Assembly: GCF_001619985.1 (NCBI RefSeq)
Contig: NW_017264194.1
Location: forward strand, 1-64,000
Length of the DNA: 64,000 nucleotides
DNA from: Xylona heveae TC161
Lineage: Eukaryota; Ascomycota; Xylonomycetes; Xylonales; Xylonaceae
Direction of reading: 5' to 3'
Below, in pieces: positions 12,921-24,894 of this stretch. The position numbers and the translations under genes are program-made. Below the pieces are notes generated by a model, which was not told where the DNA came from, did no database searches, and saw only the letters and a program-made list of their open reading frames with translations. Every line of letters begins with the position of its first letter. The stretch's first letter is position 1.

Positions 12921-13346
12921 TGTCAGACTACCAGGAGCAACTCTAGTCCAATAAGGTTGACATTAAACAATCAGGGGAAAAGAATATAATGCTCGGATGC
13001 CGGGGAGAGGAGTTTTGGCGCACTTTTTGGGGGCTTCGGGAGTGACACCGTTGAATGTTGACAATTCCCAGTACGGGGGTAATTAACGTCGGGAAATGCC
13101 AATTCAGGGAGCCGATCTACAGCCAAAGGGGGGACCAATCACAGTGAAGTGACAATAATAGCAGCTTAACCATAGCCGGAAGGAAACTCTAACCGATCCC
13201 CAGATTCAATAGGACCAGGATGGCATACACATTCGTAACTACAACCCCGCGATAACGCAGGCTTCGTTCATTCAATGAGATGATAATGAAGATTTCCACC
13301 TCCTCTCTGCTCTCTTTATCTTCGCCGATATCCCTTCACGGTGTCG
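12921..13346. other. Divergent promoter region
   Basis: A 426-bp region between the divergent serine-rich and kinase-like genes. It includes a G-rich stretch (GGCGCACTTTTTGGGGGC, 13017-13034). No other feature is recognised. Confidence 0.5.
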
Positions 13347-15599
13347 ATGGCTGGCGACCGCTCGCCAGACTATAAAGCCCTCTTCCTGAGGGCCGAGGAA
13401 GAGCGGAGACAAGAAGTAGAGTTGCGGAGACAGGCGGAAGAGCGGCAAAGACAAGCTGAAGAGCAGCAAAGACAAGCTGAAGAGCAGCAAAGACAAGCTG
13501 AAGAGCAGCAAAGACAAGCTGAAGAGCAGCAAAGACAAGCTGAAGAGCGTATACGTGAAACCACGTTCGGAGAATTCATACAAACCTGCCACAGCTTACT
13601 ATCCAGACCGTTACAAGTTGAGATTACGTCTCATTCTACGAAAGGAACAATACCCCCGCCCACTGGGAAATACTGCCCAACAAGGCTCCTCCCGTGGCCA
13701 GACTGTGCCATTCAGCAACAGCTGCTGTTCAACTCTGTTTGCGGTTACCTACAGCCAGCGGGAGAAGACCCACCACAACTGTTTTCTCCATTTCTTCACC
13801 TAGAAGGTCTTGGGCGACGGCTTTGCAGCCGGAAGCTGAGCAGTGAAAAGGATTTGGAAATTTACGAGCGATTCGCGGTGGAAGATCATGTGCATGATAT
13901 TGTCGCTGAGTTGTGCAAGATACCCAGGGCTCAACGGGAGTTTCGTCTCGGCGATGGAGTCAAGTTCGACAATCATTCCAATACCCTGGATGAGGTCGAC
14001 ATTGGCCCGTCAGAGACAAATGACACATCAAATTTCCAAAATCCCAGACCTGATCAATTTTGTATCCATCGAGTCAACGGCACCACCAATACCCTTCTCA
14101 CCACCGTCGAATACAAGCCACCCCACAAACTCTCTGTGGAAAACCTTCGCGCGGGCCTTCGTCCTATGAATCTCTGGGAGGAAGTTGTTCAACGAGACAC
14201 TATTCCAACGGATGAAGCTGGAAAATTGAAGTACAACGCCGAACTGCTGGCTAGCTCGGTCCTGGCCCAAGAATACCATGTGATGATCCAAGAGGGCCTC
14301 GAGTACTCCTACGTGACCAATGGATTCGCCCTGGTCCTTCTCCGTGTGCCATACGACGATCCAAGTACGCTTTATTACTATCATTGCGAACCCAACTTGG
14401 ATCTGGATCCTGAGGACGATCGGGTATTTCGACAACCGAAATCCGCCATTGCCAGGGTGCTGTGCCTGTGCTTGATGAGCTTTCGCTCTCGTTCTCGTGG
14501 GCAGGCATGGCGGAATGCTGCAAGGGCCCGATTGCATATATGGAAGACAAGCTTTGATCACATATTGTCACAGATTCCCAATGAGGAGCTGCAACGGGCA
14601 CCTCCCGACTCAGGATATATAGCTTCTGAAGATACAGGTTCCGAATATCTGCCATCCTCCAATTCGGTGTCTCCCACTATCCAGGACCGTCGAATACCAA
14701 CGCGATCTCAGACTGGGTGTGCGCCACCGGACGCAGCGCATGGCCCAGAGCTGATGGACTCTTCAGATTCCGATACTAACCATGCCGAGTCTGGACGGAA
14801 GCGGGGTTTCAGCCAGGTGGAATCTCCATCTCCTCGCCCGTTGTCCCGGCAAAGCGGCTCCCGCAATGATCCAAACAGTCGGAATCAGCAGCATGCAGCA
14901 CAATTTTGCACACAACGTTGCTTAATTGGCCTGCAACAACAGGATGCACTGGATGAGAATTGCCCAAATGTGGAGCTCCATCGACAGGGTAAAGACGGCA
15001 ATCAACATTGTATTACTGCAGAACGCCTCGTGCAGTTGATCAAGCAGCAGCTGGACAAAGATCTTGATAATAATATTACGCCCTTGGGAATTTGTGGAGC
15101 GTACGGCGCGCCGTTCAAGATCACGTCCGTCGCATACGGCTACACTATTATTGGAAAGGGCACGACATCTCGACTTTGGAAAGAGGTCTCGCGCGAAGCG
15201 GAGGTGTACCAAGTTCTCCGGAAAGCACAGGGCTCGGCAGTTCCTGTCTTTCTTGGAGCAATTAACTTGAAAAATGTCTATTTCCTCCATGGAGCCGGAG
15301 AGATACAACACATGCTGCTTATGGCTTACGCAGGAGAAAGTACAAGCAATCTCCAGCATTCACGGGCGCTGACTCGTGAACTGTCAAGGTCGAGGAAGGA
15401 AATCCGCAATTTGGGTGTTGTGCATCAAGACCTCCGGCCTGACAATATTTTATGGAACTCTGAACTGGAGCGGATACTTATAATTGACTTTCATCGGTCC
15501 GAGCTGGATCTTCGACTGATGAAAAAGCCGGTGGGGTCTCTGAAGAGATCATTGTGCAACACACAGGAACAGAAGGTGAAGCGGCTTCGTGTGCTGTAA
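13347..15599 (+). CDS. Fungal orphan kinase-like protein with heptad repeats
   Basis: Single exon, 750 residues, starting at the ATG at 13347. Residues about 15-70 are a highly charged coiled coil built on a perfect RQAEEQQ heptad. The middle (about 90-400) is a conserved fungal region (LEGLGRRLCSRKLSSEKDLE; FRLGDGVKFDNH; VEYKPPHKLSVENLRAGLRP) with no known biochemical role. A Ser-rich linker follows. The C-terminal part is kinase-fold-like: a Lys in TIIGKGT, REAEVYQVL, the catalytic-loop motif VVHQDLRPDN near residue 693 and IIDFHRS in place of DFG. The altered DFG leaves activity uncertain, although HxD and N are present. Related proteins form large lineage-expanded families in Eurotiales. 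Target and pathway are unknown. Confidence 0.85.
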   Translation: MAGDRSPDYKALFLRAEEERRQEVELRRQAEERQRQAEEQQRQAEEQQRQAEEQQRQAEEQQRQAEERIRETTFGEFIQTCHSLLSRPLQVEITSHSTKGTIPPPTGKYCPTRLLPWPDCAIQQQLLFNSVCGYLQPAGEDPPQLFSPFLHLEGLGRRLCSRKLSSEKDLEIYERFAVEDHVHDIVAELCKIPRAQREFRLGDGVKFDNHSNTLDEVDIGPSETNDTSNFQNPRPDQFCIHRVNGTTNTLLTTVEYKPPHKLSVENLRAGLRPMNLWEEVVQRDTIPTDEAGKLKYNAELLASSVLAQEYHVMIQEGLEYSYVTNGFALVLLRVPYDDPSTLYYYHCEPNLDLDPEDDRVFRQPKSAIARVLCLCLMSFRSRSRGQAWRNAARARLHIWKTSFDHILSQIPNEELQRAPPDSGYIASEDTGSEYLPSSNSVSPTIQDRRIPTRSQTGCAPPDAAHGPELMDSSDSDTNHAESGRKRGFSQVESPSPRPLSRQSGSRNDPNSRNQQHAAQFCTQRCLIGLQQQDALDENCPNVELHRQGKDGNQHCITAERLVQLIKQQLDKDLDNNITPLGICGAYGAPFKITSVAYGYTIIGKGTTSRLWKEVSREAEVYQVLRKAQGSAVPVFLGAINLKNVYFLHGAGEIQHMLLMAYAGESTSNLQHSRALTRELSRSRKEIRNLGVVHQDLRPDNILWNSELERILIIDFHRSELDLRLMKKPVGSLKRSLCNTQEQKVKRLRVL
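13441..13548 (+). repeat. 21-bp in-frame tandem repeat
   Basis: About five near-identical 21-bp units of the type AGACAAGCTGAAGAGCAGCAA, each encoding one heptad (RQAEEQQ) of the coiled coil. Such a young perfect array probably varies in copy number between strains. Confidence 0.9.
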
Positions 15600-15982: not shown

Positions 15983-17535
15983 CTAGAATTTCGTCTTCAG
16001 AGACCAGCCTTGGCAAATTCCTCGGGCAAGAGCAAATGCTATGGCTGCTGCAAGATACAGGACTCCTCCGAAAATAATCAGTCCCTCATAACCTCCATGA
16101 TCTCGTTGCTGGATGGCTCCTGCGATGGGAATGCCAGTAAGCGTGCCAATGCTAGAAATAGTAAAAGTGGTCCCGTTTCTTTTACCATAGTCCTCAGTAG
16201 CGCACACTTGGGAGATGCACACGGGCGTTAGACTGATAGCCGCTCCGCTCCAAAAGCCAAAAAAGACTGCATAGCAGATGATGGCTGGCGTGCTCTTCCC
16301 AGCGCTGAGCCATAAAGCCAGGGTCAAGAGTGCGCAAACAATAGAGGTCAGAACCATCACGTTGAAACGGCCCACTCGATCCGCGACTAAACCAGGTAAG
16401 AAGCGTCCTGGAACGGCACCTAGATTCAGAAACACAATGAGCGCGTACGAAAGTTCATTATGCACACCAACATGAACAGCATAAGATGCAATGTAAGTGA
16501 TCGGTATGAATACAGCAAATTCCACCAGGAAGACTGCAATAGTTGTGGAGGCATACTTGACATCCTTGAGTGCTTTGAAATCAACAGACGCGCCGGCGCT
16601 TTTATTAGGCGGCAGTCTGGTTTTCAAAAGGATACATGCGAGCAAGCATAATACGGCACTTAAGAGCGCTATGATACGGATTGCCCAAGGAAACCCGATT
16701 TTGGGGGCCGCAAAGAGGATGATGATGGGAAATATAACCCCTCCAAGCCCACCAGCAGTACATGCAATGCCCGTGGCATATCCTCGACGAAGGTTGAACC
16801 AGTGACCAACTGACGAAACTGCAGGTGTAAAGAGTGCGGATGCTGAAAGACCACCAAGCACACTGAAGGAGAGAAAAATTTGATAGTAAGCTGGAGAAGT
16901 ATTGGTTAGCGATAATTTCAGACGAAGAGGATTTCCCCAGTGAACGTAATACATGCCTTCGCTGAAACTAAGGCAGATAATTGCTGCAACTATCCCAATG
17001 GAGCCCGGAATAATGATATAATTAGGTCCATATGCGTCAAATATTGCTCCTTGTATTGATGATTTAGTACCATGCATTAATTTTTCTTCTCCTCCAGGGA
17101 GATTAAGACAAGGACCGACCAAATATAAAGTCCAATTATCTACTCACCCGCTTGTGCTCCAGCAACATAAAGAAAAAATCCATAGGCTCCAAAAATCCAG
17201 CCAACGCTTGATTCCGAATAACCCTCAAGTTGATGAGCGCTGACCCAAGCATGTAAAATCCCGAGGCTGTTCAACAGGCCCATAGAGGGAATCATAGCAG
17301 ACCATGATCCTAGCACGACCAGCCACGCCCTCACCCCTCCTTCGGGATAATCTGCACTCTCTGACGCAGCTGAAGCTTGTGCTATGAGAGCTGGGTTTGG
17401 TGGTTCTTTGCCTTGCAAGCTAAAATCAGATGACTGTAGCGGTGATTCAGCCTGCCTATCTCTAGTGCAATGCGTAGACCGGACGTCATTTGGGCAAAAC
17501 TCATCGCCAGGTCCACTAGGCTGAAACAGTCTCAT
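15983..17535 (-). CDS. Monocarboxylate-transporter-like MFS protein
   Basis: Exon 1 is 17535-17148 and the remainder is 17049-15983. Left unspliced further, this gives 484 residues. It is a 12-helix MFS carrier of the fungal monocarboxylate (MCH/MCT) type: PEGGVRAWLVVLGSW at the start of TM1, IFDAYG after the first splice, then NLRRGYATGIACTAGGLGG, GAVPGRFLPGLVADRVGR and NGTTFTISSIGTLTGIPIAG. The family usually reads LSFS.xYYQIFLSFSVLGG, whereas here about 22 extra residues interrupt it. These match a 66-nt in-frame GC-AG intron at 16891-16956, with a GCTAAC branch point; splicing it gives SEAYYQIF and 462 residues. The substrate is unknown. No known regulator lies in the promoter stretch. 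Confidence 0.88.
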
Positions 17536-18070: not shown

Positions 18071-19904
18071 TCATGTATCAAGCAAGTCCGTGAAAGCCCT
18101 CTGAGACGGCAGAACTCCATTTCTCAAGAAGCTCAAGACCGATGAGTCAAACCCCCAGTCACCTACCCATTGATCCATATGAGAGCCGTTCTTGAAATGG
18201 ACTGCAAGGTGGTTTGCACGTGCTCCCCAGGTGGGTAGAGAGGAGTTACAGAATCCGCAACGACTGCGCACATCTTCTCCCGCATCGCGCCAGGTGTCGA
18301 GGTCTGCTACAGGAGGTTTGGTGCAGCCGTGAAACTTTCGCAAATGCTGCCACAGATAATCCTTGCGCCTGAATGATCGCTCTGCTACTGGCTTTTGGGA
18401 GCAGACGTAGAATTCATGCTGTTCCCAGTGATCATGACTGGGTGATAAAGTATCGCAATATCGGCACACAGATGGTTGGGGAATGGAAGGTTGAAGTTCA
18501 TAGAGATCGGGTGTGCAGACCCAAGATTCGAGGGAGAGATGGACACTCTTCTCATGCCTACACCAGTCGTGTTTTTTTTTGAAGGATTGAACACAAAATG
18601 TACACTGGTATTGGTTTTCTTTTCCCACCTGTCGCTGCCGTTCTCGCCGTCGTATAGAACGTGATCCGCGAGCAGGTAAAGGAAACGGTAGTATTTGGTC
18701 CTGGGAGGAGTTATAACTCCATGCCGATGAGAGACTTGACGATGAAGCGTCTGAAAGTCTGCCTCCCAAGCTGGAGACAGAGGAAGCAAGATCCGAGGAC
18801 GCCTCATCGAGAGAAGATGGATCCATCAGGGAGAGGTCAAGTAGGGACGGGTCAATACAATGGTCAGATTCCGAGGCGGAGGAGGAAATAGCCCTCTGGA
18901 TGGCTGACTCTGGAGCTGGCTCATCTTCCGGTGGAGACATGCGCCATCGTTCAATGGGAGTCATTGAAGCCAATTTGCTAGTAGGCATAGGGGATCCAGC
19001 ACGAAAGACCCGCGGCTTTGATAAACACTGAATCTTTTGCTTCTGACGCCGACGAGCATTGGCAAACCAAGTGGATATCCTCTTTTTGGTAAAGCCGGTT
19101 CGCTGTGATAGATGAGAGGATTCTTCTTCAGAAGGGTAGGGATATTCCTCGTGCTCGTGGAACCATTCCTTGAGAATTCTGGCACCCTTTCGCACAAAAT
19201 GTTTGGGTTCTTTTCCCTTTGCCGGGGTCTCTATGTCGTTGTTAGGGTTTCCCTTTTCCTGCTTCACTTGGTCAGAACTTTCTTGATGGAGGCATGTAGT
19301 CCCTTACTGCATCTTCCGTGTGCTCAGGAACGCCATGGAGGTGACCCAACACAGGAGATAAGGTTTCAAACTCGGACGGGTGGCGCTTTTCTCCCTGGGC
19401 AAGACTGCACTCCCGAAATAGAGCAACGCAGCTTGAACATGATGTGACCGGATTCGGATTGGCAGGCGTGGTCCTTATTATGAGGCACTGCAGACGATGC
19501 TTCCGGCAGTAAGTACAGGGGACTGGAGGGTTATATGCGCCATCTAGCCATTGCGAGACATTACTTAATCCCCTCCGAGGCGTAGGTTGATTAATAGTGC
19601 CTGACAATAAGTGTGTATAATATAGGCCTTCTTGATTTGTTCTTTGTAATGCTTCAGCTGCATCCTCTCCATGAAGCTGAAGCACCTCTGGTGACTCAGC
19701 GTTGTCATAAGGTATCCAAAAAGGCCATCCTCCATCAGACGAGAGATTGAAGTTATTGAATGCATTCAAAGCAGACGACGGCTGACTATCATCGGGGCGA
19801 ATTTCTGAATCATTGAGATGAGATATATGTAGTGACTCAGACTCTTGAATAGGTCCCCTTGGTGGAGAAGATTGTAGATAGTAGGGCGTTTCTAAGTGGT
19901 CCAT
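18071..19904 (-). CDS. Zn2Cys6-like / TALE homeodomain / C2H2 transcription factor
   Basis: Two exons, 19904-19308 and 19258-18071, with a 49-nt intron, give 594 residues. The intron was chosen because GTAAGG at the donor and TTCTGAC..GCAG at the acceptor join the two frames exactly. Residues 130-166 show C-X2-C-X6-C-X15-C-X2-C-X6-C, the spacing of a fungal Zn2Cys6 cluster. Residues about 215-272 form a TALE-type homeodomain with the PYP loop insertion and recognition helix ISTWFANARRR. Around 417-440 is a C2H2 finger (CTFCVQSFKKKHDWCRHEKSVH), followed by Cys/His pairs resembling weaker fingers (CRYCDTLSP..., CGFCNSSLP...). A Ser-rich linker separates the domains. It is a nuclear DNA-binding regulator by domain content. 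It lies directly downstream of the ammonia-lyase fusion on the same strand; control of that locus is possible but unproven. Confidence 0.9.
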
Positions 19905-20364: not shown

Positions 20365-22689
20365 TCAGGAACAAAACTCATGAATGAGCTCCGTATACAC
20401 TTCCTCCATTTCGTTAAGGCTATTGACCTCGACCCATTCTTCCTTACTATGCAGGCCTGCACCGTCAGGACCGAACACGACTGCCGGGATTCCAGCTTCG
20501 CCCAGCAGGGCTGCATCACACCAAAAGGCGCCGCTCTGGACTGGAAGGTGACGTCCCAAAACAGTAGATGAGCATGCAACCATTCTCTTTACAAATGGGT
20601 CGTTAGGATCCAGTTTCTGTGCGGGCCGAGAAAGCGTTACACGAGGAGCGGTGTATCTGAAGCGCGGATCCTCCTGGGAAATACCTCTTAACATTGCATC
20701 GAGGTCGCTCAAGATTGATTCCTCAGATTGTGCGGAAACGGTGCGGAACTCGACTGTGATGGTGCATTTTGCGGGATAGGAGGAAGGTTCTTCGCCACCC
20801 CGTATCAATCCGCAATGTAAGGATGCCTGTCCTAGGGTCTCGTCAACAGGCAATTGTTGCTGGTATCGTTCCAGTGATTGCAGAAACCGCGCTGCAAGGA
20901 GGATAGCATCTTCTCCCTCGTCAGGTCTTGAGCCGTGTGCAGCGACTCCAAGAATATCCAACTCGACCCAGACAAAGCCTTTGTGCGCGATAAAAACTGT
21001 GCTCGAGGTCGGTTCCGGGATGATAGCGACATCTGCACGCCAACCTGCGTCCAGCAAATCCCGAGTCCCTTGGGAGGAATCTTCCTCGTCCGATACGGCG
21101 GCCAGGATCACGTCACCCTTAAGAACATGACCGGCTGCTTTTGTGGCCGACACAGCAGCTAAAGCAGCAGCTAACCCGCCCTTCATGTCCAAGCTACCTC
21201 TTCCCAAGATAACTTGCTTGCCATCTTTTTCGCCTAATGATCCTGAGAGGGGATCCCTTTCGTAGCTGGAGAGACTGACAGTGTCAACATGGCCATTGAA
21301 CATCAAGGATTGGCCGCCTCCACTACCGCGGAGGACACCGACCACAGATGGTCGTCCGGTAACGGGTTCGATGCGGTGATATTCAATGTCACGATGGGCA
21401 AACCAGGCTTCGAGGTAATTGGAGATCTGGCCCTCCCCGGCCCCGTCGGCCATAGAGAGAGTAGGATTCGAGGAGTTGATACGGACGAGAGCTTGAGTCA
21501 AGCCGACACCGTCGTCCATCGATACATCCCAAGGAGTCATGTAATCTCGTGCGCCCTCTGTGCTGAGAAGAACCACGACAGAGTCTTTGTTGAGAAGCGA
21601 AGCGGCTTTGTCTGATTCAGCTAAATGCCATAGTGCTGCCAGTGATGCGCCTCCGCATGGTCCAGCAGCGACGGAGTGAGAAGAAAGATATTGAACTGCG
21701 CGGTGACTTTCGTATGATGACACTGTTATACAAGCGTCGGTCGATTGCTGCAGCTCAGGCCACCCAGTTGAGGAAACGGTTTCGCAATTCATCCCGTCCA
21801 TTATCGTTGAGGAGCTTTGAACTGTCACTGACCGTCCAGCAGTCAGACTAGTATGCAAACACGGCGCAGAATCTGGCTCTACAGCAAGCACTGAGACGGG
21901 TGTTTCTCGAGATTTGCAGTATCTCACTACAGCTTGTGCCAGACTCCCGACACCGACAGGAGTAACCATAAGGCTGCTGGACAAGCCAAGAGAGCCAAGT
22001 TGCTCCTCGATCTCAAAGAACATTGTCGAATACCCCTCTACAATCCACGACGGGATATCAGTGTAGCCTTCTAATGGTGTATCTTGTATGAGAAGTGCTC
22101 CATCAGTTGCTCGCGTCGCCCTTGATGCTTCCTGTACGGCTTGATCGTAGTCTCCCTTGACAATGACCAGGGAAGCTCCTTCAGCTGCAATGAGACGCCG
22201 CGTACCTTCATCCATTGCATCGGGTACGAACACTTTTGCTGTAATGCCCAGGAGCCTTGCCATGAATGCAACTGCTCTTCCATGGTTGCCCTTCGTTGCG
22301 GCAATTAGGGTGATTGAGCGTTCCTTGGCTTTTACAGAGAGGTCATTCAAACTAGCTGTCAATGGAAGTTCGAGGTTGGATGCCAAAGCTCGATAACATC
22401 CCCAAGACGCTCCAAGAACCTTGAATGAGGGCAATCCAAAACGATTACTTTCATCTTTGACGAAAATGGCGCGGACGCCTAATTTTGCCGCAAGATCTGG
22501 TAAAGAAACGAGAGGGGACTGAGAGTATTTGGGAAGCGACCGATGGAATTGGTCGAGGCCCTCAATTGGTGAAAACTGGCAGCGCTGGCCCGCTGCTGTA
22601 GGGTTGAAATAGATTGGCCGACGTGAAGACATATTGCGCAGGAAGCAGAAAGCGCGTCTCGATATGAGTGTATCAGACTTTGTATGCAA
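20365..22689 (-). CDS. Diaminopropionate ammonia-lyase / M20 deacylase fusion
   Basis: An intronless ORF of 774 residues; a start at 22632 (MSSRRPIYF) would also fit. Residues ~25-390 are a fold-type II PLP enzyme like bacterial diaminopropionate ammonia-lyase (YgeX/DpaL), which converts 2,3-diaminopropionate to pyruvate and ammonia: VKDESNRFGLPSFKVLG with PLP Lys90, ATKGNHGRAV, IQDTPLEGYTDIPSWI, glycine loop TPVGVGS and STEG near 376. Asp203 matches E. coli Asp189, but Lys133 replaces Asp120. Residues ~395-774 are an M20 metallopeptidase of the ArgE/DapE/YgeY group with complete-looking zinc ligands: GHVDT (His467, Asp469), LDMKGG (Asp501), DEED (Glu535/536), PEPT (Glu559), dimer-domain His585 and His747. 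The predicted path is deacylation of an N-acyl diamino acid, then ammonia release. No signal peptide. Divergent from the amidase gene at 23336. Confidence 0.92.
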   Translation of the reverse strand: MHTKSDTLISRRAFCFLRNMSSRRPIYFNPTAAGQRCQFSPIEGLDQFHRSLPKYSQSPLVSLPDLAAKLGVRAIFVKDESNRFGLPSFKVLGASWGCYRALASNLELPLTASLNDLSVKAKERSITLIAATKGNHGRAVAFMARLLGITAKVFVPDAMDEGTRRLIAAEGASLVIVKGDYDQAVQEASRATRATDGALLIQDTPLEGYTDIPSWIVEGYSTMFFEIEEQLGSLGLSSSLMVTPVGVGSLAQAVVRYCKSRETPVSVLAVEPDSAPCLHTSLTAGRSVTVQSSSTIMDGMNCETVSSTGWPELQQSTDACITVSSYESHRAVQYLSSHSVAAGPCGGASLAALWHLAESDKAASLLNKDSVVVLLSTEGARDYMTPWDVSMDDGVGLTQALVRINSSNPTLSMADGAGEGQISNYLEAWFAHRDIEYHRIEPVTGRPSVVGVLRGSGGGQSLMFNGHVDTVSLSSYERDPLSGSLGEKDGKQVILGRGSLDMKGGLAAALAAVSATKAAGHVLKGDVILAAVSDEEDSSQGTRDLLDAGWRADVAIIPEPTSSTVFIAHKGFVWVELDILGVAAHGSRPDEGEDAILLAARFLQSLERYQQQLPVDETLGQASLHCGLIRGGEEPSSYPAKCTITVEFRTVSAQSEESILSDLDAMLRGISQEDPRFRYTAPRVTLSRPAQKLDPNDPFVKRMVACSSTVLGRHLPVQSGAFWCDAALLGEAGIPAVVFGPDGAGLHSKEEWVEVNSLNEMEEVYTELIHEFCS

Positions 22690-22748
22690 TTATGAATCAA
22701 CTATGTCGGGGATGATAGACAAGCAAATACTATTTATATTACATATAG

Positions 22749-22773
22749 ATATATATATATATATATATATATT
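22749..22773. repeat. (TA)n microsatellite
   Basis: About twelve TA dinucleotides, 60 bp upstream of the fusion gene start codon. Confidence 0.9.
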
Positions 22774-22964
22774 GAATTCTGATATTCTAATCTCTGAGTC
22801 AAACGGTCGGGCAATAATTGAAGTACGTAATTGGAAGTATTCTGGACTGTTGTTGGCTGGGAAGAAGGGAAAAAAATTTGAACAGACGCCTTCCACGGAC
22901 ATAAGATGCGCCTTCTGACAACACATTTCTCTGGGGAGGATTATGGTCCCTGGCAGCGATATAA

Positions 22965-22985
22965 CTATAACTAAGTTAGTTATAG
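22965..22985. promoter_or_regulatory. 10-bp perfect palindrome with 1-nt centre
   Basis: CTATAACTAA-G-TTAGTTATAG. It lies 276 bp upstream of the fusion gene start and 351 bp upstream of the amidase start, so it could be a dimeric operator serving both. It could also be a remnant of a palindromic repeat of the type seen at 1463-1960, which shares ACTATAGT-like cores. Confidence 0.5.
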
Positions 22986-23335
22986 CTGCCTACGGGTTCC
23001 AGTTTAGTTCAGCCGTTTAAGCGAAGAATTGGTATTAGTCTAACCGTCTAGTCATAGTACTGATACCAGACTAACGGAACTTTGATAAGCTCACCTGACA
23101 TGACCCCAATGTTATCAGAAGGCGCTGTTGTGATGGTTGAATCTGTGGAGCTGACGATAAGGTGTGTTGCCATCAATTGTATTCGGTACGCTGCGAGCAG
23201 CGCTGATATATAAAGCAAAGTGGGTTCTTTCCAAGTTTTGCCGAAGCAGCCCTTGCCTTGCAATTACTGCCCTACGTATAGGAATTTGGACTTTCAATAG
23301 AGTAGTGCATCCTTAATTGTGGCATTATCCACAAC

Positions 23336-24894
23336 ATGCAAGCAGCGAAAGGCGGTACTCGCATTATGCACACCAACCCCACGAGACTTTTGTCAAAGAT
23401 TTCGCGGCGTAATTTATCTGGGCTTAGAATCAACTCAGATAGGCTTTGGGAAACTCTGCATGAAACATGCAAATGGGGTGCAGCTCATCGATATGGCAAG
23501 TATGTACCTGACAGGTTTTTGATCGCAGTTTCGCATTTCAATCATAATCTGATACAGAAACAGGGGGCCTACGGAGACAGGAATGGCCCGCTTGACTCTC
23601 ACAGATGAGGACGCACACGTTCGAAGGTGGTTGGCTGCCGAGGTCACGAAACTGGGATGCTCCCTTTCGATAGACCAGATGGGAAACATGTTTGCACGAC
23701 AGTCAGGGAAGCTTAAATCATCTGCCCCAATGATTGCAATGGGAAGTCATCTTGACACACAGCCTCGAGGAGGTCGTTATGACGGAATCCTTGGAGTAAT
23801 GGCCGCATTGGAAGTACTCCGAACGATGAAAGAAAATGGGTTCCAGACCATTCATGATATTGGGCTTGTAAATTGGACAAAGTATGTACACGGTAACTAT
23901 CTTTGATTGCATATGGTTCTAGCTAACTTAATTCGTTACAGTGAGGAAGGAGCTCGATTCCCCAGATCAATGTGTTCTTCTGGCGTGTGGGCAGGTGTGA
24001 TCCCAATTGAATCGGCCTGGAACCTGCATGATATCCATGACAGCAGCACAACTCTTCGATCAGAGCTTGAAAAACATGGGTTTCTGGGAAGCATGGCTTG
24101 CTCCAGTAATGCAGCGAATGGGACGTTACTCGGAGCGCATTTTGAACTGCACATCGAACAGGGTCCAATTTTACAAGATAGCAACAGATCTATTGGTGTC
24201 GTCAAGGGCGCCCAAGGATACAGATGGCTGACCTTTAGGGTCCTTGGACGAGATGCTCATACCGGAACCACGCCGCTCAGTGCTCGACAAGACCCTTTAC
24301 TCGCTGCATCCAGAATGATTATTTCCTCTCACGAAATTGCCAAACGGTACGACGCATTGGCATCGACCGGTGTGCTTAAATTACCATCAAATGCCTCTAC
24401 AAATACTGTCGCCTCGGAAGTCACATTTACTCTTGATATCCGGCACCCGCAGGATAGTGTTGTCCAATTTGTCCAGGAAGAGTGTTTGAAATCCTTTTCG
24501 GCCATTGCATCACAGGACGGACGGGGAGTAGCATTTGACTGGACATTGGACACCGACTCTCCCGCTGTCCAATTTGACAAGAACTGTATCAGTTCTATCG
24601 AGGCAGCTGCAGATGCACTGGTTGGCCCGGATAAGCGGATGTCAATGACAAGCGGTGCCGGACATGATAGTGTCTACACAAATAAACACTGTCCGACAGC
24701 TATGATCTTTGTCCCTTGTCGAGATGGGGTCAGTCATAACCCAACGGAGTATTGTAGTCCAGAAGATTGGTATGTTTTTCTAGCCATGTATGGTTGATAA
24801 ACTCAGATTCTGATTTTTATATAGTACTCTGGGCACCCAAGCTTTGCTCGAAGCAGTAGTGCATTACGACCGACACCACATGGGGGCGACTTGA
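23336..24894 (+). CDS. M20 hydantoinase/carbamoylase-family amidase
   Basis: Four exons, 23336-23499, 23564-23881, 23942-24769 and 24825-24894, give 459 residues. The first ATG leaves a basic N-terminus (LLSKISRRNL) that might be a weak mitochondrial presequence. Family signatures are WGAAHRYGKGPTETGMARL (restored by splicing), GSHLDTQPRGGRYDGILG with zinc His/Asp, WTNEEGARF (restored by splicing) with catalytic Glu, FELHIEQGPIL, GRDAHTGTTPL in the dimerisation domain and SGAGHDSVY with the late His. The family hydrolyses N-carbamoyl amino acids, ureidopropionate or allantoate-type ureides, releasing ammonia and CO2; the exact substrate cannot be read. It shares a promoter with the ammonia-lyase fusion, suggesting the two act on the same compound or its derivatives. 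The gene looks intact. Confidence 0.92.

Follow-up and report, generated by a model that had tools for sequence, protein, structure and literature searches.

A lyase and an M20 hydrolase in one gene

The DNA analysed here, referred to below as the window, comprises the first 64,000 nt of contig NW_017264194.1 of the ascomycete Xylona heveae TC161. Its minus strand carries, between 20365 and 22689, an uninterrupted open frame of 774 codons before the stop, which a first-pass annotation had read as one intronless gene fusing a diaminopropionate ammonia-lyase to an M20 deacylase. The open frame was confirmed, but its start had to be moved. The frame begins at a TTG immediately 3' of a TAA; the first ATG is codon 20 (22632), from which an intronless fusion protein of 755 amino acids (aa) is read. 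The N-termini of homologues (MSSRRPIYFNP-like) coincide with this ATG. Because the homologues begin there and span nearly all of the 755 aa (see below), the 5' 57 bases of the longer frame are probably untranslated.

In Pfam, the 755-aa protein matches PALP at residues 36-357 (E = 3.5e-60), Peptidase_M20 at residues 444-751 (E = 5.6e-27) and M20_dimer at residues 548-650 (E = 7.3e-18). Since two independent domain matches fall within one 755-codon frame, the frame is not a chance one. An AlphaFold2 model obtained with an 89-sequence alignment has a mean predicted local distance difference test score (pLDDT) of 93.2 and a predicted template modelling score (pTM) of 0.88. Searched with Foldseek, this model retrieved DapE/ArgE structures (7uoi, 7rsf) as well as diaminopropionate lyases from E. 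coli (4d9i) and Salmonella (5ygr), each over 364-405 columns. The proposal that two complete catalytic halves share the frame is thus borne out, the catalytic lysine and the metal-ligand motifs being intact alongside the two domains. Coordinates of these and other features are collected in Table 1.

Table 1. Features of the fusion locus (window coordinates)
Feature	Position	Strand	Basis
Fusion gene: lyase half (N-terminal) and M20 half (C-terminal)	20365..22632	-	Frame, ATG start, Pfam, homologues
Pyridoxal 5'-phosphate (PLP) lyase half, residues 1-366	21535..22632	-	Pfam, NCBIfam, YgeX alignment, Foldseek 4d9i/5ygr
M20 half, residues 372-755	20368..21519	-	Pfam, NCBIfam, motif residues, Foldseek 7uoi/7rsf
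N-carbamoyl-amino-acid hydrolase / allantoate-amidohydrolase-family gene, 461 aa	23336..24894	+	Modelled, family scan
Promoter region shared by the fusion and the divergent carbamoylase, 703 bp	22633..23335	.	Gene starts
Perfect inverted repeat CTATAACTAA-G-TTAGTTATAG, 21 bp, 10-nt arms	22965..22985	.	In the shared promoter
Homeobox (KN) transcription factor gene, two open frames (18071-19267 and 19272-19904)	18071..19904	-	Pfam, conserved neighbour
Major facilitator superfamily (MFS) transporter (Pfam match within 15983-17122; upstream part assumed at 17140-17535)	15983..17535	-	Pfam

The fusion is conserved among moulds

When the whole protein was used as query, 7,995 candidates were scored and 878 reached E <= 0.001; the best 120 of these, the window's own protein among them, were listed. 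The other 119 are 61-71% identical to it over 93-100% of its length, and every one of the 120 bears both PF00291 and PF01546. Penicillium, Aspergillus, Paecilomyces, Talaromyces, Rasamsonia and Malbranchea are represented, Aspergillus flavus having the fusion as P0010, and every named organism is a mould. The lyase-M20 fusion is therefore real and conserved: the two-domain architecture holds in fungal proteomes, and it is not peculiar to X. heveae.

Some fungal gene models are shorter. The search with the M20 half returned many proteins of ~546 aa with both domains (for example Fusarium graminearum P0360, Biscogniauxia P0309 and Sodiomyces P0296); in those inspected, the N-terminus falls inside the lyase half, and they would be gene models truncated at an intron. 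In Blastomyces, Emergomyces and kin, lyases of 439-457 aa (P0156, P0158, P0166, P0169, P0174, P0188 and P0201) end 82-101 residues past the lyase, inside the start of the M20 half, and are either decayed genes or cut gene models. In a lyase tree of 102 rows, the fungal lyases form one clade with a Shimodaira-Hasegawa-like approximate likelihood-ratio (SH-aLRT) support of 99. Fused, lone and cut rows are intermixed within it, which would fit either one fusion followed by losses or changes that happened repeatedly. This tree was drawn from diverse subsets and left out P0111 (a chimeric model), fusion pieces outside 345-380 aa, and lyase-half proteins whose tails measured 14-70 residues or that lacked the end motif. 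One further tree included 18 of 62 proteins of 530-660 aa.

Active-site residues of the two halves

Lys71 of the fusion (22420-22422) aligns with Lys77 of E. coli YgeX and is the residue correctly picked out at first pass as the PLP lysine, there numbered Lys90; Asp184 (22081-22083) aligns with YgeX Asp189. The lysine, within an FK motif, is present in 119 of the 120 fusions, and both residues are invariant in the 120 proteins listed for a search with the lyase half. Family models place this half among the diaminopropionate ammonia-lyases, with a score of 288 for NCBIfam PRK08206 against a cut-off of 276, a cut-off that all five other fungal members scanned also exceed. The equivalog model TIGR03528, at 220.7 against 532.25, lies far out of reach.

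K77 and D120 of the E. coli lyase are described as potential catalytic residues (PMC4000059), and YgeX accepts both isomers of diaminopropionate (PMC12507026). At the position of the catalytic Asp120, the fusion has Lys114 (22291-22293). Among the 120 fusions the residue found there is E in 73, M in 29, K in 14, D in two, and Q and A in one each; the lyase-half list gives D58, E44, A16, K1 and M1, and the 80 prokaryotic loci described below D77 and E3. In E. coli YgeX, Lys77 reportedly acts on the L isomer and Asp120 on the D isomer. Because Lys114 replaces Asp120, the lyase half is predicted to be active on L-2,3-diaminopropionate only.

In the M20 half, H448, D450, D482, E516, E517, E540 and H728, which we take from M20 structures to be metal ligands or catalytic residues, are each found in 119-120 of 120 proteins (the window's own included), and the set of metal-ligand motifs is as complete as had been claimed. 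The best model for this half is TIGR01910 (ArgE/DapE), at 212.4 bits against a cut-off of 217.6; P0003 and P0010 score 224.1 and 199.6, and the M20 protein of the bacterial locus L009 exceeds the cut-off. The label first given to this domain was YgeY/ArgE-like; it is ArgE/DapE-like and no YgeY equivalog. The YgeY equivalog model PRK13004 yields 122.7 bits against a cut-off of 321, and on this score the possibility that the M20 half is a YgeY equivalog was rejected; in the M20 tree described below, YgeY is a long branch outside the clade of fungal and lyase-linked sequences.

Separate lyase and M20 genes in Actinobacteria

Among GTDB genomes, the scan gave 430 matching stretches, of which 331 were relatives, and the best 80 loci were kept; all are actinobacterial except L063, from an archaeal metagenome-assembled genome (MAG). 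No lyase-M20 fusion was found among these 80 loci, where the halves are separate genes. Long called frames in L012 and L053 were considered as bacterial fusions and are read instead as overlapping frames in GC-rich DNA. The nearest case is L081 (1973-4249), in which lyase and M20 stand in the same frame, parted by a single TAA. An M20 gene lies on the same strand within 400 nt of the end of the lyase match in 17 of the 80 loci. The order is that of the fusion and also of the adjacent E. coli genes, ygeX preceding ygeY, which supports the reading of the two halves as a genetic unit. Lyase and M20 proteins of the Arthrobacter (L057) and Rhodococcus MAG (L009) pairs are 45-48% and 42-43% identical, respectively, to the corresponding parts of the fusion, and the order is the same, but the two are separate proteins.

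The bacterial neighbourhoods would fit uptake and breakdown of an amino acid. LysR regulators occur near L009, L055, L057, L061 and L064, an AA_permease near L009 and L057, and a Na/Ala symporter near L029. In L127, genes for a lyase, a polar amino-acid ATP-binding cassette (ABC) transporter, an M20 protein and an aminotransferase are consecutive, and the open frames of L128 are laid out alike; in L064, which adds to the 17 loci above, the M20 gene comes after a carbamoylase. Among the annotated neighbours of loci such as L080 and L066 there was no regulator or amino-acid transporter of that kind. L061 (10204-11355) and L131 (3750-4958) have a second M20-dimer protein after the lyase/carbamoylase genes, with no match to the fungal M20 half at 1e-8.

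Linkage was also approached from the M20 side. A search of 396 genomes from a single phylum gave 14 M20 matches at E 1e-45, spread over 13 genomes. A lyase was present within the 1.5-kb flanks of four of the best six (three of five without the centre genome, which had been chosen for its lyase-M20 pair) and of none of the other eight.

An M20 tree of 48 rows, with ultrafast bootstrap (UFBoot) and SH-aLRT supports, included 11 M20s whose 1.5-kb flanks contain no lyase and left out L044 (partial) and L114, L119, L121 and L124 (repeats). The 13 fungal M20s form a clade (100/100) nested in a clade of 27 rows (98/95), whose 14 bacterial members comprise 13 lyase-linked ones and L120, which lies at a contig end. 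All 11 M20s without a flanking lyase fall outside the 27-row clade, three of them in a second clade with eight linked ones. L112, L113 and L120 were labelled lyase-linked by hand, the lyase being ~2.7 kb away in the first two and the linkage of L120, at its contig end, being out of sight. From this placement we conclude that the fungal M20 half descended from a lyase-linked M20 lineage. In a lyase tree of 58 rows, the fungal clade (100) likewise stands amid actinobacterial lyases, with the lyases of L129 and L132 outside. For three of the four trees a quick search was run; support is low for many of the deep branches, and the outgroup sequences from E. coli sit on long branches. Shared ancestry with lyase-linked bacterial genes joins the architecture, the conserved motifs and the co-occurrence of the halves as an established feature of the system.

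A divergent carbamoylase gene

On the other side of the fusion's promoter lies a gene of the N-carbamoyl-amino-acid hydrolase family, modelled in four exons (23336-23499, 23558-23881, 23942-24769 and 24825-24894). Motifs GSHLDT, YDG, NEEG, LHIEQG and SGAGHD are present, and the open frame 23907-24797, which is mainly the third exon, scores 204.9 with TIGR01879, just above the cut-off of 204. In its own genome the family yielded only two exon matches, both at the fusion locus, and none elsewhere. The N-terminus (23336-23440) is basic and Ser/Arg-rich, by eye like a mitochondrial presequence, as it also is in A. flavus P0111. Conserved linkage to the fusion was seen for this gene and the homeobox gene only: a Talaromyces atroroseus gene model (P0077) has the carbamoylase joined ahead of the lyase-M20 fusion, the A. 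flavus model P0111 has its front part joined to most of the fusion, and in P0099 and P0116 the fusion is joined to the homeobox factor, its neighbour here too.

Carbamoylase matches were also found in seven of the 80 prokaryotic loci, in five immediately beside the lyase and on the same strand. Of 149 genomes searched with the third exon, 66 gave a match at 1e-25; the top two matches lie at most 1.4 kb (G650) and at most 3.4 kb (G002) from a lyase, G002 being the source of L057 and known beforehand, and a third lyase-linked carbamoylase, G643 (107 bits), came well down the ranking. In 12 genomes chosen for carrying the lyase, eight of the top nine of 23 carbamoylase rows are lyase-linked (up to ~3.4 kb), a linkage assigned manually by comparing contig coordinates with the loci, with row 8 (G665) on a different contig from L013. 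The linked carbamoylase of L064 was absent from the results of this 12-genome search.

Because the fungal M20 belongs to a lyase-linked clade and the best carbamoylase matches lie near lyases, the fungal genes look like an actinobacterial catabolic set in which two genes were fused. Most likely, fungi took the set from a cluster in Actinobacteria, and two genes that had followed one another merged into a single frame; we infer the direction of transfer between Actinobacteria and fungi.

Proposed function

We infer every chemical step, like the substrate of the fusion, from sequence and analogy. The reading that we favour, with a confidence only somewhat better than even, is that of a bifunctional catabolic enzyme whose M20 half would free L-2,3-diaminopropionate from an N3-substituted, probably ureido, form for degradation by the lyase. 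The group that the C-terminal metallohydrolase would take off N3 is most likely carbamoyl (ureido), the one that albizziin carries; the N-terminal PLP lyase would then eliminate ammonia from the freed L-2,3-diaminopropionate to give 2-aminoacrylate, whose hydrolysis would yield pyruvate and a second ammonia. Upstream of these steps, the divergent carbamoylase would remove an N-carbamoyl group, probably from N2, and the two proteins together would convert ureido-diaminopropionates into pyruvate. There is precedent in E. coli, where YgeY and YgeX turn albizziin (N3-carbamoyl-diaminopropionate) into pyruvate (PMC12507026), and both published versions of the pathway end in ureido hydrolysis by YgeY followed by YgeX (PMC12990295). 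Given the adjacent carbamoylase, the most straightforward role for the fungal genes would be to strip carbamoyl groups off diaminopropionate and then degrade it. The first-pass annotation had the M20 half removing an N-acyl or similar group; removal of a substituent is retained as a proposal, and the carbamoylase would make a ureido group likelier than a simple acyl one.

A broader scheme can be entertained tentatively, as possible but on balance doubtful: moulds would have a pathway that breaks down ureido-diaminopropionates (diureidopropionate, albizziin). Its lyase, M20 and carbamoylase genes would have come from Actinobacteria as a cluster, lyase and M20 fusing afterwards, and the carbamoylase would act in place of YgeW/UacY. 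If true, such a route would correspond, in a eukaryote, to the final part of reductive uricolysis in bacteria.

Several observations weigh against the proposed function. The M20 half is only ~25% identical to YgeY and scores poorly with its equivalog model, as said above. The Asp120 position, Lys here, varies across the fusions, so that substrate or stereochemistry may differ. Pairing is far from general: 63 of the 80 loci have no M20 gene directly after the lyase, five of the six genomes with a match at 1e-55 among 148 searched have the lyase only, and of ten matching genomes in a separate search four have the lyase only and one M20 only. Many fungi, too, have one half only or early-ending gene models, their proteins consisting of the lyase alone, M20 alone, or the lyase with ~80-117 residues of an M20-like start (for example in Blastomyces, Emergomyces and Emmonsia).

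Among other explanations, one that we consider unlikely but worth keeping in view is catabolism of plant non-protein amino acids, in which M20 would cleave N3-oxalyl- or other N3-acyl-diaminopropionates, such as the β-N-oxalyl-diaminopropionate (β-ODAP) of grass pea, and the carbamoylase would serve some other step. ArgE/DapE enzymes are amide deacylases, and theirs is the model that fits the M20 half best; A. flavus, whose fusion was noted above, is a close relative of A. oryzae, and A. oryzae fermentation is reported to lower grass pea β-ODAP, to go by a title (reference 119, PMC7590051). The carbamoylase next to the fusion, found again in two gene models from other fungi and close to lyases in bacteria, is left unexplained by this, and a spread across many moulds and Actinobacteria would suggest a commoner substrate. 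It is improbable, in our estimate, that the lyase half has drifted to another β-substituted L-alanine or a hydroxy amino acid, diaminopropionate not being its physiological substrate. The unconserved Asp120 position, near-invariant in the prokaryotic loci, and the low TIGR03528 score would fit such a drift, but the PRK08206 result, shared by five other fungal members, and the retention of Lys71 and Asp184 speak against it.

It seems very improbable that the fungus has a complete reductive uric acid pathway with this locus as its tail, even though the last two activities are, by homology, those of the E. coli cluster and, in a bacterial cluster (L129), a related lyase stands together with carbamoyltransferase, YqeA-like and XdhD-like genes. 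When eight proteins of the E. coli pathway were compared with the window, YgeY was the only one to match, and at the M20 half alone; a uricolytic cluster at this locus was rejected for that reason. SsnA, YgfK, HyuA, YgeW and XdhD of E. coli have no match in the 64-kb window at 1e-3; in the genome as a whole, searched for SsnA, YgfK and HyuA, SsnA had no match (in a search without positive control), YgfK had a partial match only and HyuA-like matches lay on C7, C12 and C14 only. The uricase of the oxidative route is present, and the L129 lyase stands outside the clade of fungal and most actinobacterial lyases. An artefact of assembly or annotation joining adjacent genes, finally, is hardly credible: the genes are indeed separate in the 80 prokaryotic loci, and splitting is seen in some fungal models (P0126 and P0265, both from P. 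maclennaniae), but the frame is continuous, and because all 120 listed proteins carry both domains an assembly artefact was rejected and the join, as first described, stands.

Two bacterial clusters may be recorded here. L129 (1-9346) contains an SsnA-like fragment, the lyase, a carbamoyltransferase, a YgeW-like gene, a YqeA-like gene and XdhD-like pieces, and is of uricolytic type; L132 (1273-10218) contains an Amidohydro_3 gene, a YgeY-like M20 gene, an SSF symporter, a GntR gene, the lyase and a carbamoylase. UacY of C. difficile is of the Amidohydro_3 family, as in L132 (PMC12507026).

Comparison with known systems

The fusion resembles E. coli YgeX (PDB 4d9g-4d9n) and its Salmonella homologue 5ygr in fold, in the equivalents of Lys77 and Asp189 and in exceeding the PRK08206 cut-off; these are separate proteins, whereas the fusion has Lys for Asp120 and lies far under the TIGR03528 cut-off. 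YgeY, which hydrolyses the 3-ureido group of albizziin (PMC12507026), shares with the M20 half its superfamily and a gene position directly after the lyase; low identity and the PRK13004 score set it apart. ArgE/DapE deacylases provide the best model, the conserved motif residues and the best structural matches (7uoi and 7rsf), but the M20 half is linked to a lyase and scores slightly under their cut-off, which P0003 and the L009 M20 protein exceed. An amino-acid permease lies near both the L057 and L009 pairs and a carbamoylase in L057. The reductive uricolytic clusters of E. coli and C. difficile end in like manner, from a ureido compound through diaminopropionate to pyruvate; they are bacterial and anaerobic and include XdhD, YgfK/UacX, SsnA, HyuA and YgeW/UacY (PMC12507026), the E. 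coli versions of which have no match in the window.

In the open-access literature, judged by title or start of abstract, nothing was found on a fungal enzyme of this design, and the two-domain enzyme is apparently uncharacterised so far. It is a eukaryotic, fused form of the known bacterial lyase-M20 gene pair. Widely sequenced moulds (Aspergillus, Penicillium and others) thus carry an enzyme whose function we did not find described in that literature, and the 2025 work on YgeX and YgeY makes its substrate directly testable. If true, our proposal would explain how ureido- or acyl-diaminopropionates, perhaps legume toxins such as β-ODAP among them, are used by moulds, and would provide a clear case of two paired bacterial genes that became fused in a eukaryote.

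Other features of the locus

The palindrome in the shared promoter is a possible regulator site; its core, TAACTAANTTAGTTA, occurs without mismatch only there within the window. An (AT)n run (22749-22772) also lies upstream of the fusion gene. The homeobox (KN) factor is a candidate regulator of the locus and the MFS transporter a candidate uptake protein. GH76 genes are annotated nearby as well (Pfam), and a long open frame at 13341-15599 has a QAEEQQR repeat stretch near its start. The fusion locus lies ~20 kb from the contig end and is possibly subtelomeric; the start of the contig (1-2000) is AT-rich, with a GC content of 0.324.

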